The notes below the pieces were generated by a model. That model was not told the origin of the DNA and made no database searches. It was given only the letters and a program-made list of their open reading frames with translations. Shown here one piece after another: positions 7,526 to 29,839 of a stretch of DNA of 30,404 nt. How positions within the stretch are numbered: the first letter of the stretch is position 1; each line of letters opens with the position of its first letter. A program made the position numbers and the translations under genes. Origin of the DNA: a virus; the IMG/VR virus record IMGVR_UViG_3300037337_000047, positions 1-30,404 of that record. The stretch is one strand, 5' to 3'.

Positions 7526-9519
7526 TAGATTGAGTTTGAATTAATTTTATTATTATCCAATTGTTGCGCATCACTTACGTCTTTACTGACTACAAAAGCT
7601 TGGATTGGTGGTTGTGAATTTAGATTGTTTGCCACCGTGTTCCCGATTTGATTTTCGCTACTCGCCTGAAATGCTACTTGTGGAGTTGCGCCCGCTGCAC
7701 CTGCCCCTCTTGCTCCGCCACTTGTACCGCCACCGCCTTCAACTGAACCGCCACCTAATGACTGCAAAGCTTTTTTAGTAGATGCAATTGTACTTGCCAC
7801 CCCAATTGCGCCCTGTGCTGCATTTAAAGCAATTACAGGAATAGCACTTACTCCGCCAGTTGCAATTGCTTGCGGTGTAGCCAACGCACCAACTATAGAT
7901 GTGTTTGTTGCCGCTACTTGTTTTCCAACAGCAACTGCGCCCTCTGCAATCATTGCAGCCTTTTGTATTTTTTTACTTTTGCCGAATACCTGAGATAAAA
8001 ACGCGACTGCTTGACCGGCTAAATTTAGTCCTTGCTCTTGTATTTCTCTTTTTTGTTGAAGTTTAGCGCGTTCAATTTCAACTTCTTTATCAGCTAAATC
8101 TTTGGCAGCCGCAACCTTTTCCTCTGATTCTTTGTCAAATATAACTTTGTTTTCGTCAATTCTTTTTTGTGCTAAATCCCGCTCCAAAGTAGCGAACTTT
8201 TCAGCGTTTAAAATAGTGATACTTTCAATGTCAATTCCTTTTTGTTTTAGGATTTCAACCTCTTGATTTGCTCGTTCTTTTTGGCGTGCTAATTTTTGCT
8301 CTTCGGTTTTATCTAATAAATCCTCGTTTGCAATTCGCAAAGCTGTTTCTTTGTCAATTCCTTCTTTTAGTAATGCCAAACGTGCATCTTCAATTACTTT
8401 ATCGGATGCTGCTTTTGCAGCGGCTGCTTCTTTATCTAGTGCCTTTTGTTCGTTACGCAAGCTATTTGCGTTTGCAAGTTGCTCTGATTCTTGACCTGAA
8501 ATACGTTCATTTATATCTGAAATTTGCAATAAAGCCGCTGCCCTTTCATCTAGGTTCGCGCTACTTTTACCTTCTTGAGCAATTCTTAAATCTGAAACTG
8601 TTTTAGCTAAATTTGCTAAACGTAATTCTTCTAAAGATTGTTGCTTTAAAACAGCTGCGAGTTGTTCGTTTAATTGGGCTCTTTTTGCAATAGATAAATT
8701 ACTGTCATTGTCTCTTTTTTGCCGTATCTTTTCGGCTTTGTTTTGGAAGTCTAATTGTGTTTGTGCTGAAATACGTCTTGCATCTACTAACTTAGCTTCT
8801 GCGTCTGCAAGTTTTCCGCTTGCCTTTACATTGCTATCTACTGCATCTGTTAAAACTTTCAGTCCGTTCGCAGCAGCGTCTAAGCCTAAGGCTCGCAATC
8901 CTTTTTGTAAAAGCACGGATGTTGATAAAATTACATTTCCTGCTGTTTTAAAACTTTTAATTATATTATCAACTAAAAATGTAGCAACTGGTTCTAACAC
9001 TTTCAATAGTCCGCTAAATAATCCGCTAATAACCGCTAATCCTTTTCCGAATTTATCTCCGTTGGCTTCGGTACTAAAGAATGCTTTTCCCAATAATGCA
9101 ACCGCCCCCACTATGACTGCTAAAACCGCGCCTATTGGATTTGCGACAATAGCAAACATTTGAACAAGCAAAGCTTTAAAGCCACTAATTGCACCGCTTA
9201 TCGGGTTGTCTAATCCTTTTATATTTTCGCCTAAACTTTTTGTAGATTTTTCTGCCTTTTGTTGCGTGTTGCTTAGCTTTTCAACTTGTGATTTAGCTTC
9301 CTCCGTTGCGATAGACGCCTTTTTTTGTGCTATCTCTAAATTATTAATTTCTTCAACTGATTTACCCGTTGAATTTGCTAACGCTTCGTTCGCCTTTTTT
9401 AATTTAATTTCAGCTTCCTCAACTTTAATAGTAGCCGATTCTAACTTTCGAACTTCCTCGGCGGTTTTGTTTGCGTTAGTATCAAACTGTATCTTTATTT
9501 TTTGCTCTTTGTCTTCCAT
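7525..9519 (-). CDS. Tail tape measure protein
   Basis: A protein of 664 aa with a long coiled-coil N-terminus (about 5-95, rich in K, E, A). Next comes a hydrophobic block of about 50 residues (FKALLVQMFAIVANPIGAVL onward, about 112-150). A second long coiled coil spans about 230-500, and the C-terminus is glycine- and alanine-rich. This layout is typical of tape measure proteins, which set tail length and are ejected with DNA. At ~1.5 angstrom per residue it would give a tail of about 100 nm, consistent with a siphovirus. It is coupled to the upstream gene by an overlap at 9519. In canonical siphoviruses it precedes the distal tail proteins, whereas here it follows the likely hub proteins. 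Confidence 0.8.
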   Translation of the reverse strand: MEDKEQKIKIQFDTNANKTAEEVRKLESATIKVEEAEIKLKKANEALANSTGKSVEEINNLEIAQKKASIATEEAKSQVEKLSNTQQKAEKSTKSLGENIKGLDNPISGAISGFKALLVQMFAIVANPIGAVLAVIVGAVALLGKAFFSTEANGDKFGKGLAVISGLFSGLLKVLEPVATFLVDNIIKSFKTAGNVILSTSVLLQKGLRALGLDAAANGLKVLTDAVDSNVKASGKLADAEAKLVDARRISAQTQLDFQNKAEKIRQKRDNDSNLSIAKRAQLNEQLAAVLKQQSLEELRLANLAKTVSDLRIAQEGKSSANLDERAAALLQISDINERISGQESEQLANANSLRNEQKALDKEAAAAKAASDKVIEDARLALLKEGIDKETALRIANEDLLDKTEEQKLARQKERANQEVEILKQKGIDIESITILNAEKFATLERDLAQKRIDENKVIFDKESEEKVAAAKDLADKEVEIERAKLQQKREIQEQGLNLAGQAVAFLSQVFGKSKKIQKAAMIAEGAVAVGKQVAATNTSIVGALATPQAIATGGVSAIPVIALNAAQGAIGVASTIASTKKALQSLGGGSVEGGGGTSGGARGAGAAGATPQVAFQASSENQIGNTVANNLNSQPPIQAFVVSKDVSDAQQLDNNKINSNSI

Positions 9520-11594
9520 TAGTAGTTAAGTAATGTTAATTTAGTTTTGCCTGTTGTAATATCTATCGTTCCATCTACTATTGTAAATTTATTTTCGCCT
9601 ATTATAATATCATTTTCTAGCCTAAAATCCCGCACCTCGTTTGCGTTCAAATATAGCGTAAAATCTTGCTTCATTACATTTTGGTCAATGTATCTTTTTA
9701 TAATTTCAATATAATAGCGACTAAATAAATTATCTCGATATGCTACATTATTTTGAACTAAAACCGACCAAGCAAAGCTCTTATTGTCAGTTGTGTAAGG
9801 CAAAACTTCAATATAAGATGAAATGCTTTGCGTTTGTAAAGCATTACTTTGCAAAGAACTTTGAACACCAAATAAAGCGTTTAAAGGCTTGTTACCGTGT
9901 GAGTAAAATAAAACTAATTCGCCAAAGTTTGGCGTATAACGCGCTTCTCCACTGTCTAATATTTCTGGCTGTCCACCTTCGAATCCGTAAACGGTTGTAA
10001 CGTTTGTTCCTAGAATAGTTACGGGCGGAATAATTGTGAAATTAGTTTCAATTTTAAATTCTTTTGCGTTCTGTGGTTTTATTTCTGGAAAAGATGCTTG
10101 TCCGTAATCCTGACCAGCCCCAATTTTATAATCTACATTGCTTTTAAAGTTACTATCAGCGTGTTTAAAAATATAATAGTTGAAATCGTCCTGCGTTGAT
10201 TTTTCTACATCGGAAATATCCGCTACATACGTGACCTCTCTTTTATTTTCCAGAATATCCTGTGGCGTATAAAAAAATAAACTATCGTCGTCTGGATTAA
10301 CGTCTAAAATTGCAATGTTGAATGATTTTAAAAAGGAAGTTAAAAAATCAATTACTTTTACTTCTGGCAAAGATTTAATAAGGTCAATTTTTGAGCCGCC
10401 CATCAAAGCAAAATTATTGTTATTGGAAATTAAACTAATAGTTGATAATGTTGGTATATCCATTCTAAAACTTAAAACCGCATTATTCCAGCTAATCGCA
10501 TTCGTAAATTCTAAATTTATAAAATATTCTATTTCTAAATTTTGGTCAAAAAATAATGTTTCTATAAAAATTCCAATTTGTTCAGTTTCTTGTGTTAAAG
10601 TAAAAGTTTCTGTTTTAATTGGGAACTCTTCGCCAACTCTAAATATAGACATTGTGCAATCAGTTGTAGGTGCGGTTAAATAATTTATTCCTTGAAATAT
10701 AATTGATTGAGCTACTTTATCATTAATAACTCCCGCGCTACTTATTTTTACCTTCACACTATTACTTAAAGCAAAGTAATCAATTCTCATTCCAAGGCTT
10801 GCGGTGGTAGTTGCGTTTTGCGTTATAATAAATTTGCTTTGTGTTTTGCTTCCAAAGTTTTGACCCATACACCAAATGTAAGCGTCTTTATATTCCGTTC
10901 TGTTTTCGAGCGGTGCTACAATTTGCAACTGATATTTTTCTTTTATTAATTCTATGATTGTGCTAAATGAAATTGCTGGACGCAACTCATTTGCCTTTAA
11001 AACTTTGTTTGACGTAGGTAAATTTGTAGGATCAAAGAATACGTTATCTAACCCTGTGCCGTCTGCATTGTATTGTATCACTCGGTTAGTCGAGGCTAAC
11101 GGGATGAAGTATTTTATCGGGATTCCGTTAATATTATTTGACTGAACACCTGTTAGCAGTGATTTTACGGCTAACGGTGTCCAATTTATAATAAGACTAC
11201 CTAGTAAATCTATAGTGTCATCGCCTATTTTATCCTTTAAATTAGTTAAATTTGTAGCAAAACTTGCGGTTATAACAGATTGTTTACCCATTTTATATAC
11301 AATTTTCTCTAATTTTAACAGTCCAGTCTGATTTAAAATACTATTTACATATACTTTGGCACGTACTTTACGCAAATCAGAAGGCTTAATTACGTCTGTA
11401 TTTCCAAAATAACCTAAAGAATTAAGATTATTTGGAGTTGCGTCAAAGGTAAAGTTCAAAGAATAGGGAGAAAAAACTTTAGTAATCTCTTGCGTATCTT
11501 TAAAAGTATATCGCATTGGGATACTCTCATCTTTTATAAGGTCTAATTTGCTGTAATTTAAGCCATCGAGCGATACAAATACCTCTGTTATCAT
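9519..11594 (-). CDS. Putative tail hub / baseplate protein
   Basis: A protein of 691 aa, beta-rich throughout. It opens with MITEVFVSLDGLNYSKLDLI. A central GGSKIDLIKSLPEVKVIDFL stretch, then LTSFLKSFNIAILDVNPDD (about 425-465), recalls hub and distal tail proteins of Bacteroidota phages, as does the late 'YLNANEVRDFRLENDIIIGENKFTIVDGTID' type region (near 645-675) where strands dominate. The position is between another tail protein (4-bp overlap) and the tape measure. A role at the tail tip is inferred from size, order and composition; no enzymatic motif was seen. Confidence 0.55.
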   Translation of the reverse strand: MITEVFVSLDGLNYSKLDLIKDESIPMRYTFKDTQEITKVFSPYSLNFTFDATPNNLNSLGYFGNTDVIKPSDLRKVRAKVYVNSILNQTGLLKLEKIVYKMGKQSVITASFATNLTNLKDKIGDDTIDLLGSLIINWTPLAVKSLLTGVQSNNINGIPIKYFIPLASTNRVIQYNADGTGLDNVFFDPTNLPTSNKVLKANELRPAISFSTIIELIKEKYQLQIVAPLENRTEYKDAYIWCMGQNFGSKTQSKFIITQNATTTASLGMRIDYFALSNSVKVKISSAGVINDKVAQSIIFQGINYLTAPTTDCTMSIFRVGEEFPIKTETFTLTQETEQIGIFIETLFFDQNLEIEYFINLEFTNAISWNNAVLSFRMDIPTLSTISLISNNNNFALMGGSKIDLIKSLPEVKVIDFLTSFLKSFNIAILDVNPDDDSLFFYTPQDILENKREVTYVADISDVEKSTQDDFNYYIFKHADSNFKSNVDYKIGAGQDYGQASFPEIKPQNAKEFKIETNFTIIPPVTILGTNVTTVYGFEGGQPEILDSGEARYTPNFGELVLFYSHGNKPLNALFGVQSSLQSNALQTQSISSYIEVLPYTTDNKSFAWSVLVQNNVAYRDNLFSRYYIEIIKRYIDQNVMKQDFTLYLNANEVRDFRLENDIIIGENKFTIVDGTIDITTGKTKLTLLNY

Positions 11595-27767: not shown

Positions 27768-27983
27768 ATGAATTTACTAAAATTATTGATACAGGCGTCT
27801 GGATTAAATCAGAAAGAATTTGCACAAAAAGTCGGTCGAAATCCCGCTCATATTAGCCGTCAAAAAATAAATGGCGGAAATATGACTTTTGAATCTTTAC
27901 TGGAGTACGCCCAAATAGTTGGTGTATCTGAATTGAATTTTAATTATAAAAACGTAAAAGTAAAAGTAATTTTTAAAATGTAA
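27768..27983 (+). CDS. Cro/CI-type helix-turn-helix repressor
   Basis: A protein of 71 aa. LNQKEFAQKVGRNPAHISRQ (about 13-32) is a clear Cro/CI (XRE) helix-turn-helix, with QKEFAQKVG as helix 2 and NPAHISRQK as recognition helix. The rest has two further helices and a short strand-like tail, so it is a small Cro-like dimer with no protease domain. It lies opposite the early operon with divergent promoters in a 120-bp gap, the standard switch geometry. The cassette genes behind it are on the same strand. Confidence 0.8.
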   Translation: MNLLKLLIQASGLNQKEFAQKVGRNPAHISRQKINGGNMTFESLLEYAQIVGVSELNFNYKNVKVKVIFKM

Positions 27984-27988
27984 ATATT

Positions 27989-28384
27989 ATGACAACAGAT
28001 AGTTATATCAACAAAAATGTTCAAATTACCAATTGGAAGTTTAATTTTTTTGACTTTGAGGGTTCAAATGAAGCACAAGACCCGCAATGCGTGCAAACGA
28101 GTGTTATGACCAGTTATTACTTGGTTAAATATTATGGTGGAAGTTATGAAGATAGTTTTGATGTTGTTCTTTTTGCTACAAGTAAAAAAACAACAGCTAC
28201 TAAATATTGTACCAAATTTAACAAAATTTTAAAAAAATGGAAAGACTATTATAAGCAATTTGAGACGCAAAAATACGGAATAATGACTTGGATAGCTGAT
28301 GAATACATCAACACTAAGTTTGAAAGATGGAATAAACTTAATAAAATAAGCAAATGTTGTTACGTAGAAGTTTTGGTTAGATAA
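27989..28384 (+). CDS. Unknown protein, possible first cassette
   Basis: A protein of 131 aa beginning 5 nt after the repressor stop, so it is co-transcribed. It has a mixed beta/alpha pattern (VQITNWKFNFFDFE, YYLVKYYGGSYEDSFDVVLF) and a basic helical part (KYCTKFNKILKKWKDYYKQF). It contains several aromatic residues and four cysteines but no motif I recognise. It is followed by the first attC-like site (28399-28477). A cassette origin is inferred from that site only, as its own 5' boundary is not marked. Confidence 0.6.
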   Translation: MTTDSYINKNVQITNWKFNFFDFEGSNEAQDPQCVQTSVMTSYYLVKYYGGSYEDSFDVVLFATSKKTTATKYCTKFNKILKKWKDYYKQFETQKYGIMTWIADEYINTKFERWNKLNKISKCCYVEVLVR

Positions 28385-28398
28385 TTAGTCATAAATAA

Positions 28399-28477
28399 TA
28401 GATATACGCAAGTTCTTGCGAAAGATAAACACGAATTAACCACATATTTTGCCATTGCTTTCAAACCGATGTTGTGC
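28399..28477 (+). repeat. attC-like site 1
   Basis: It begins TAGATATACGCA with hairpin CGCAAGTTCTTGCG and includes TTTTGCCATTGCTT (28447-28460), as in site 2. It ends with GTTGTGC (28471-28477). That last element is the cleavage-end-like core; its complement GCACAAC starts site 2, as expected if the sequence between came in as one circular cassette. Confidence 0.5.
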
Positions 28478-28510
28478 GGTGGTGCTTTTAACAATTAAAA
28501 ATATAAAATT

Positions 28511-28726
28511 ATGTCAAAAAGAAAATATTCAAAAATGTCTGATAAAGTTAAAATCACACATTACGAATGCACAAATAGAAAGTGTAAGTGGCAAGGAATG
28601 GATGAGCAAAAGGGAACTCAATATTTAGAAAATGGATTTACAGAATTAATTTGCCCTAAATGTTGTAAAAATGAGTTTTATGGATTACTTCCATCTTATG
28701 TAGATTCTCTTTCTGAAGTTTCGTAG
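28511..28726 (+). CDS. Zinc-ribbon protein (cassette gene)
   Basis: A protein of 71 aa with C20-x4-C25 and C48-x2-C51 and a further Cys52, a four-cysteine zinc ribbon interrupted by a loop of about 22 residues. The N-terminus is basic. Such folds often mediate nucleic acid or protein contacts. Specific function is unknown. It has its own A-rich leader (ATATAAAATTATG) but no promoter. It is flanked by attC-like sites 1 and 2, so it may be a transferable cassette. Confidence 0.6.
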   Translation: MSKRKYSKMSDKVKITHYECTNRKCKWQGMDEQKGTQYLENGFTELICPKCCKNEFYGLLPSYVDSLSEVS

Positions 28727-28732
28727 CATCTC

Positions 28733-28864
28733 GCACAACGTTTCGCAGCTATAAGCAGTGGTAAAATACGGATGCAGATATTTTCGGCTAAATATAAACG
28801 CCTTGCGAAACGAGATTATGAACTTAAAACAAAACTTTGCCATTGCTTATAACTGCTGTTATAT
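28733..28864 (+). repeat. attC-like site 2
   Basis: It starts GCACAAC (28733) and ends GTTATATG (28858). Two nested arms of 21 nt (28745-28765 and 28836-28856) are complementary at 18 positions, with two further G-T pairs. A second 9-bp pair (28739-28747 with 28804-28812) competes at the base. About 130 nt long, within the range known for attC sites. Imperfect stems, as here, are typical of attC recognised as folded single strands. Confidence 0.55.
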
Positions 28865-28900
28865 GATGTACGGATTATTAATAACTAAATATATTAAAAA

Positions 28901-29140
28901 ATGAAATTAGACGATATAGCTAATTTATTGGCTGAAAAAATAAACCAAGCTCACTATATAAAACATTATTTGAACAATGTATTTATAGAAGGTTTTCAAA
29001 AAGGAGCAGAAGGAAGCGACTCTTTTGCTATTGCTTTTTATGAATGGAGGTCAACGTGTTTGATTAAAAACATCGACCAATATACAAACAAAGAAGCTCT
29101 TGAAATGTACAAAAAAAATCTTATGAAAACGAAAACGTAG
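28901..29140 (+). CDS. Unknown small protein (cassette gene)
   Basis: A protein of 79 aa, largely helical. It opens MKLDDIANLLAEKINQAHYI and later holds FIEGFQKGAEGSDSFAIAFYEW and a basic end (MYKKNLMKTKT). No family recognised. It is preceded by an A-rich leader (TATTAAAAAATG) and flanked by attC-like sites 2 and 3. It is the last gene before the convergent terminator at 29189. Confidence 0.55.
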   Translation: MKLDDIANLLAEKINQAHYIKHYLNNVFIEGFQKGAEGSDSFAIAFYEWRSTCLIKNIDQYTNKEALEMYKKNLMKTKT

Positions 29141-29188
29141 TATATCATATAACTAGTAGATATACGCATAAACTTGCGTTTTTAACAC
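29141..29188 (+). repeat. attC-like site 3 (probably shortened)
   Basis: CATATAAC (29146-29153) is complementary to the GTTATATG that begins this cassette (28858). TAGATATACGCA (29157-29168) is identical to 28399-28410, and CTTGCG follows at the same 16-nt distance in both. The right half seen in sites 1 and 2 is missing; the convergent terminator starts instead. Confidence 0.4.
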
Positions 29189-29222
29189 AAAATAACCACT
29201 CAATTTGAGTGGTTATTTTTTT
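29189..29222. terminator. Bidirectional terminator between cassette array and lysis gene
   Basis: Two 15-nt arms (29189-29203 and 29205-29219) are fully complementary with a single-base centre, and runs of T occur on both sides (plus: TTATTTTTTT). It ends the rightward cassette transcript and the leftward lysis transcript. Its core CCACTCAATTTGAGTGG differs from the terminator at 7343 by one base. Confidence 0.85.
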
Positions 29223-29839
29223 AACGTCAAAATCGGAATTGAATATCCGACAAAGTAGTTTTTTTGATTATCTATTGAAACAGAAAAATTATTAATGAAA
29301 ATATTTCCTTTATAAATAAATCCATCAAAATTTTGATTATTTCCAATTTCTGCACCAGCTCTCAAACTAAAATAAGGTTGTTTAATTTTTATTGGAACTT
29401 CTGTTTTTCTTGCTTTAATTTTATAGTTTGGTGTAATCTCTTGAACTTCACCACGAACTATTCCTTCGATATTTAACTCCAAAAACTCATCATCAAACTT
29501 GGTCGAAAACTTACTTATTGCAATTGCTTTTTGATATAGTAAAACTTTGTTTATGGAATCGACAATTAAAAACTGTTTCATTAAAATACTGTTTTCGTAT
29601 TTGAGTTCAGCGTTCAATGGATTTACTTTTACAACTGTTTTACCTTTTAAATAAACAGTATCGTGTATGATATCTGCATTAGGTTTTTGACCTATAAATT
29701 GTCCTTTTATTTCAGGCGTTTTTACAGTTACAAATTTAGGCCCTGGACTGCAAGTTTTAAACATAACAACCAAAAATAAAACAACCCACCCGGTCCATTT
29801 GAACCAGTTTGGAATTACTATTGAATTTGTTTGTATCAT
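29213..29839 (-). CDS. Membrane-anchored lysis-associated protein (possible spanin analogue)
   Basis: A protein of 208 aa with one N-terminal membrane helix (WTGWVVLFLVVMFKTC, about 15-31), then a long periplasm-facing part. Segments PEIKGQFIGQKPNADIIHDT and VYLKGKTVVKVNPLNAELKY resemble an N-anchored protein type seen in Bacteroidota phages near lysozymes. The C-terminal half is beta-rich. Start overlaps the amidase stop by 4 bp, so it is last in the lysis transcript. A spanin-like job in breaching the outer membrane is inferred from topology and position only. Confidence 0.55.
   Translation of the reverse strand: MIQTNSIVIPNWFKWTGWVVLFLVVMFKTCSPGPKFVTVKTPEIKGQFIGQKPNADIIHDTVYLKGKTVVKVNPLNAELKYENSILMKQFLIVDSINKVLLYQKAIAISKFSTKFDDEFLELNIEGIVRGEVQEITPNYKIKARKTEVPIKIKQPYFSLRAGAEIGNNQNFDGFIYKGNIFINNFSVSIDNQKNYFVGYSIPILTLKK

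Follow-up and report, generated by a model that had tools for sequence, protein, structure and literature searches.

An integron-like gene cassette array in a phage genome and related recombinase-linked arrays in Flavobacteriales chromosomes

Phage record and variable region

The window analysed here is the whole of the IMG/VR viral record IMGVR_UViG_3300037337_000047, 30,404 bases in length, which encodes portal, terminase, primase/helicase, methyltransferase, holin and endolysin proteins, together with a RecE-like exonuclease and SSB. A variable region lies between a Cro/C1-type HTH regulator and a 208-aa phage gene, and within it the stretch 28471-29153 consists of two gene units with complementary ends and one complete attC-like site joining them. 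A blastn search against INPHARED phages gave no match for the window, Rfam at the gathering threshold and ARAGORN gave none on it, and the PF00589 profile for tyrosine recombinases had no match anywhere in the phage record. The features of the region are given below, with scores from the covariance model R1, which was built from an alignment of 23 sites, all from other phage contigs.

27768..27983, plus strand: Cro/C1-type HTH regulator, left flank of the variable region (phrog_1373 E 5e-6, phrog_3 E 2e-5)
27989..28384, plus strand: 131-aa ORF with no assigned function, missing from the related phage contigs L043 and L045
28391..28420, minus strand: degenerate copy of the attI-like element, 80% identical to 29149-29178, with AAT replacing AAC
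28421..28470, plus strand: decayed 3' half of an attC-like site (site 1; R1 22.6 bits, E 0.016)
28471..28739, plus strand: cassette unit 1, GTT to AAC, with complementary ends; the same ends occur with other ORFs in L043, L045 and L009
28511..28726, plus strand: 71-aa zinc-ribbon-like ORF of unit 1 (sub-threshold zinc-ribbon matches only)
28732..28864, plus strand: complete attC-like site (site 2; R1 109.6 bits, E 4.9e-20)
28858..29153, plus strand: cassette unit 2, GTT to AAC, with complementary ends, adjoining the attI-like site
28901..29140, plus strand: 79-aa ORF of unit 2 (MKLDDIANLL...), with relatives in eight further viral contigs
29151..29186, minus strand: attI-like acceptor, reverse complement GTTAAAAACGCAAGTTTATGCGTATATCTACTA followed by GTT
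29213..29839, minus strand: 208-aa phage gene, right flank of the variable region (phrog_25644 E 2e-11)

The regulator is kept in L043 and L045 and the 208-aa gene in L043-L046. The 131-aa ORF is possibly a further acquired unit; the stretch 27976-28430, which contains this ORF and then the degenerate attI-like copy, has near-complementary ends (ATTATGAC / GTCATAAAT) and is possibly a third such unit. Profile comparison gave no confident family for either the 79-aa protein or the zinc-ribbon-like protein.

attC-like sites and cassette units

The original prediction placed three cassette recombination sites in this region, and the second of them is a complete attC-like site. It is composed of AAC at 28737-28739, a conserved G at 28740, stem arms at 28745-28765 and 28836-28856, and GTT at 28858-28860. 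The long imperfect arms that had been claimed for it pair at 18 of 21 positions, and in a scan for the attC shape (AAC, spacer, hairpin arms, GTT) it reached the best score in the window, 33, compared with at most 28, and mostly at most 19, in three shuffled 30-kb strands. The other two sites are of different kinds. Site 1 is a half-site, fused to the degenerate copy of the right-end element at 28391-28420, and its end at 28470 is common to L043. At site 3 the R1 search of the window gave no match and the attC body is absent: the unit ends at AAC 29151-29153 and the attI-like element follows directly. In all, a full attC, the half of another and an attI-like site are present in the window, and given the single complete attC the phage array may be partly frozen.

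The 3' half of site 2, used as a DNA pattern, led to three more viral contigs with similar sites in arrays, and R1 detected 34 sites at E < 1e-4 across eight other phage contigs, including the related arrays of L009 and L039 with eight each. The sites of this family have R boxes, an asymmetric spacer and a covarying stem, with conserved mismatches at the places where classical attC sites have extra-helical bases. The R1 alignment contains 18 stem pairs, 16 of which show compensatory double changes, and the G after AAC is conserved in 167 of the 171 sites of the family. An early genome-wide scan with one central attC motif had given 21 hits, of which those examined (L019, L021 and L030) were chance matches; the single motif hit of L012, in a non-array phage region, was also taken as chance.

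The complementarity of the unit ends, which had been read directly from quoted strings, was confirmed. All of these strings are present: GTTGTGCG at 28471-28478 is the exact reverse complement of CGCACAAC at 28732-28739, and GTTATATGATGTA at 28858-28870 is complementary to TATATCATATAAC at 29141-29153 at 12 of 13 positions. Across 149 units of the site family, complementarity beyond GTT/AAC averaged 8.9 of 12 nt, as opposed to 4.6 with shuffled partners (maximum 5.04 in 2000 shuffles).

Near-identical unit ends, GTTGTGCGATGGTGCTTTTAA ... TAGCATCTCGCACAAC, enclose different ORFs at 28471-28739 of the window and in L043 (1422-1824), L045 (9889-10187) and L009 (5752-6142), and the ends GTTAGCAAATCG ... 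AATGTTTGCTAAC in L009 and L013 likewise enclose different ORFs. From these comparisons, genes seem to have been exchanged inside fixed unit ends.

Site family in Flavobacteriales chromosomes

R1 was searched against 396 genomes from the order of Chryseobacterium, the Flavobacteriales, centred on the genome of L019 (Chryseobacterium shigense). It matched 149 of the 396 genomes, and 18 control genomes from outside Bacteroidota gave no match. In the chromosomes the sites are arranged head to tail in arrays, with as many as 25 in 20 kb. Duplicated cassettes within these arrays end at AAC junctions, and in L078 the copies run exactly from AAC to AAC. The 79-aa cassette protein of the phage was found in none of the 396 genomes, and this search accordingly revealed no direct sharing of a cassette gene between phage and chromosome.

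Some arrays contain other elements. IS110-family copies (Transposase_20 / DEDD_Tnp_IS110) lie inside attC-like sites, about 20 nt from GTT, in L075 (5833-7075, 10677-11919 and 13298-14540) and L076 (5792-7036 and 12575-13817); these insertions are much like those of the IS1111-attC group, which targets classical attC sites. The array of genome G249 with its surroundings (L073, 5667-19517) carries defence-like genes for an AIPR protein, Eco57I-type methylases and DUF4365.

Array-linked recombinase

Related tyrosine recombinases or their remnants were found at four of the first seven array ends examined; the recombinase beside the array of L085, which looks IS91-linked and unrelated, was left out of this count. 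Relatives of the 345-aa enzyme of L077 at E <= 1e-45 are present in 120 of the 396 genomes, and among PDB entries the sequence matches of this type of enzyme are XerA-like proteins and IntI4. Close relatives and sites occur together in 40 genomes, the recombinase alone in one, sites alone in 109 and neither in 246 (p 7e-18, an optimistic value, since the sampled genomes are related and their independence is overstated). At seven further loci, which were chosen for having enzyme and sites on one contig, the close-type enzyme was located in every case at the array end that the strand assignment of the sites (see Gene orientation) had predicted to carry the integrase. There, 673-1939 bp separate it from the closest site detected, and its gene points toward the array at all seven. 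More distant recombinases, of 40-43% identity, occupy the same array end, on the strand opposite to that of the main type, in L129 (genome G374) and L130 (genome G190), and recombinase subtypes probably exist.

In the original prediction, the phage array was perhaps loaded by an integron integrase of the host. Supply in trans by the host is probable on these sequence comparisons, but the likely enzyme is not a classical IntI. Against the TIGR02249 IntI model the array-linked enzymes scored 193.9-206.7 bits, below the cut-off of 265, whereas an IntI1 control scored 507.5; none of the 396 genomes passed that cut-off. In alignment with IntI1, about 31+10 residues, the IntI-specific insert near patch III, are missing from the array-linked enzymes, and this insert has been called necessary for integron function (PMC9668308, PMC8138268).

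These results bear directly on the possibility that the locus is a classical CALIN, whose standard attC cassettes are moved by a host IntI of a known class. The GTT/AAC boxes, the folded sites and the complementary-ended units would all suit it, and phage CALINs are known, one of them in a Polaribacter phage (PMC9892861). We judge it distinctly unlikely: the IntI model separates real IntI1 (507 bits) from an array-linked enzyme at about 205 that has no IntI insert, none of the 396 sampled genomes passes its cut-off, and the Polaribacter phage, P12002L, has no match to the site model.

attI-like acceptor

At about 20 chromosomal loci an attI core resembling ATATAAACAA or ATATATACTA, each followed by GTT, lies between the recombinase, on its 3' side, and the first cassette; one example, directly 3' of the recombinase, is GCGTATATATACTA, again followed by GTT. 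From 20 chromosomal integrase-linked attI sites a matrix was made that covers the 10 bases ahead of GTT. Applied to the window, it ranked the junction at 29153 (minus strand) first of 1278 GTTs, with 8.5 bits as against 5.8 for the next, and the counterparts of this junction likewise came out on top in L044, L045 (two), L118 (three) and L121. When aligned, the phage junctions have about 33 bases in common (GTTAAAAACGCA..TGCGTATATCTACTA) up to GTT and diverge from there with the first unit. The attI-like element is the same in L044, L045, L118 and L121 and the first unit is different each time. The end found in L010, L011 and L038 is related but weaker, TTATTTAC(T/G)A followed by GTT.

The right-end element also includes a small hairpin with T5 behind it and is often found ahead of a start codon, as would be expected if the repeats did not move and served the phage as terminators or as regulatory hairpins in between its small genes. 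That explanation is very improbable, given that the same sites and the attI core occur in long chromosomal arrays with an adjacent recombinase and that the genes at the same place differ between phages. An additional role of the right-end element as a terminator is possible.

In L118, a 105-kb viral contig, three attI-like copies are present at 8740-9920, two of which flank a stretch with no complete attC; the element is also the 5' leader of the genes that follow it.

Turnover among related phages

Relatives of the right-flank gene led to L043, L044 and L045, in which both flanks are kept and other genes lie between them. The 79-aa gene recurs in L010, L011, L037, L038 and L039, with other neighbours in each. 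Between the window and L011 the attC body is 100% and the unit 98.6% identical, and the 200 bases upstream are at about 51%, the level of unrelated sequences; the identity breaks at AAC 28737, and it spans 28737-29162 at 98.8% and then stops. On the other side, identity of the right flank with L044 and L045 begins at 29149 and 29148, respectively, which is the junction of unit and acceptor. The proposed comparison of related phages thus came out as the cassette reading had anticipated, L043, L044, L045, L010 and L011 sharing the flanks or one unit with the window, next to other neighbours and with breaks at the predicted boundaries. The PF00589 profile had no match in ten of eleven other phage records, several of which are fragments, and one weak match in the phage of L009.

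The main rival explanation is passive mosaicism, in which homologous recombination between phages at the hairpin sites and the right-end element would exchange the genes with no site-specific recombinase. Phages are mosaic, the attC bodies and the right-end element are alike between them and could serve as homology, and this phage has its own RecE-like exonuclease and SSB. Nevertheless, the breaks are located at AAC/GTT, beside GTT the right-end element agrees with the attI core of the chromosomes, and each unit has matching ends, which homologous recombination does not require. We therefore regard passive mosaicism as unlikely.

Gene orientation

The identity breaks at AAC, the G after AAC in 167 of 171 sites and the position of attI on that side identify the strand of the R1 model, and with it the plus strand of the window at site 2, as the equivalent of the canonical bottom strand; in classical attC sites the conserved G after AAC is on the bottom strand (PMC2727003). 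The same three observations ruled out a functional R' at the GTT arm, as was considered earlier. As judged by these junctions, the mobile unit is the attC body plus the downstream gene, and the recombining arm is the AAC arm, on the left in the orientation of the window.

In the phages, all 28 genes between sites are on the model strand and read toward attI. In the chromosomes, 149 of 172 cassette genes are on the opposite strand and read away from attI (model strand to other strand, 28:0 in phages vs 23:149 in chromosomes, p 2e-20). Since the model strand corresponds to the bottom strand, the cassettes of the chromosomes have the canonical order of a gene followed by attC, and the phage cassettes are gene-reversed. 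Because they are read toward attI, the phage genes are probably expressed from the repressor side and not from an integron promoter at attI; transcription of the array by the repressor promoter, which is on the same strand, is plausible.

Proposed mechanism

On the strength of these comparisons we consider it very likely that the phage carries a small cassette array belonging to an integron-like system of the Flavobacteriales, probably served in trans by a host recombinase. The array runs from the attI-like acceptor (29151-29186, minus strand) through unit 2 with its attC-like site to unit 1 with the decayed site. Circular cassettes would be cut out and inserted by a tyrosine recombinase from the host; the folded single-stranded attC-like hairpin would recombine, at AA^C / G^TT, with either the acceptor or another attC, and each inserted piece would comprise an attC body and a gene. 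By this route the phage could swap small accessory genes with no recombinase of its own, and phage transcription from the regulator/repressor side would read them. The sequences themselves establish the sites, the acceptor, the unit ends, the turnover at exact junctions, the orientation rule and the chromosomal arrays with their neighbouring recombinase; from these we infer the action of the recombinase, its work in trans on phage DNA, the use of a folded strand and the expression of the genes. The 109 genomes that have sites and no close recombinase match count against this explanation, as does the lack, in the recombinase, of the domain held necessary for IntI activity (PMC9668308).

The wider proposal, to which we give moderate credence, is that a second kind of integron, whose integrase has no IntI-specific domain, is widespread in Flavobacteriales, and that phages with an orphan attI and a separate pool of reversed-gene cassettes trade small genes by means of the host enzyme.

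Relation to known systems

The system resembles integrons, such as those of class 1 and the Vibrio cholerae superintegron, in its head-to-tail sites with one or few genes per unit, its G^TT/AA^C boxes, the complementary unit ends, the conserved G after AAC, the hairpin with three interrupted stem positions, and the attI-like site and integrase at one end. It differs from them in a recombinase with no IntI-specific insert, in stem interruptions that are mismatches (C.A at 5, G.T at 11 and 14) and not extra-helical bases, and in an integrase gene that points toward the array; the phage version, moreover, has no integrase and reversed genes. With regard to integron membership, the chromosomal arrays have tandem cassettes in the same orientation and attI beside the integrase, and their enzymes lack the IntI domain. 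The system is thus, by its sequence features, integron-like in its working, yet it falls outside the IntI definition. Treponema-type integrons have an integrase that is co-oriented with the cassettes, and their IntI proteins carry an extra domain; the system described here is similar in that its integrase gene is directed at attI and the array, and unlike them as to the extra domain. The NCBIfam family NF040815 (recomb_XerA_Arch, 'site-specific tyrosine recombinase/integron integrase') is also close, as the close-type array-linked enzymes score 218.6-221.5 against its cut-off of 220, but it is no more than a family name, and the literature searched describes no array or attI with it.

Among phages, the original prediction of a CALIN-like array with no integrase stands as regards the cassettes and the absent integrase, while the attI-like acceptor makes the locus more than a CALIN. 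A CALIN is taken to have at least two attC sites and no integrase; the window has one complete attC and a half-site, and no PF00589 match. The phage CALINs of Qi et al. 2023 (PMC9892861), which include that of Polaribacter phage P12002L, are likewise integrase-less attC clusters, but P12002L has no match to this site family, and the accessible part of that article describes neither an integrase-less attI-like acceptor in phages nor junction-exact turnover between related phages. Phage cassette arrays are already known; an integrase/attC/attI type of this kind and an integrase-less phage attI are apparently new, no earlier account of them having been found in the open-licence literature.

Integrons are thought to be rare in Bacteroidota. 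The accessible parts of two articles list the phylum among integron carriers with no detail (PMC8618304, PMC9668308), and the one complete integron that IntegronFinder 2.0 named in Bacteroidetes proper is that of Salinibacter (PMC9024848). In the present sample, over one third of the Flavobacteriales genomes have integron-like sites, and these are linked to a recombinase that falls outside the standard IntI criteria. Should the system prove functional, cassette recombination can do without the IntI-specific domain, and the descent of integrons from Xer-like enzymes can be put to the test. For phages, a docking site with no enzyme of its own is a possible route for the quick exchange of small accessory genes, whose reversed orientation would make them readable by phage transcription.

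A complete copy of integrase plus array is present on a plasmid of Chryseobacterium sp. SNU WT5 (L122, NZ_CP041688.1), so the bacterial system may itself be mobile. The cassettes on this plasmid are interspersed with a group II intron and an IS110 transposase.
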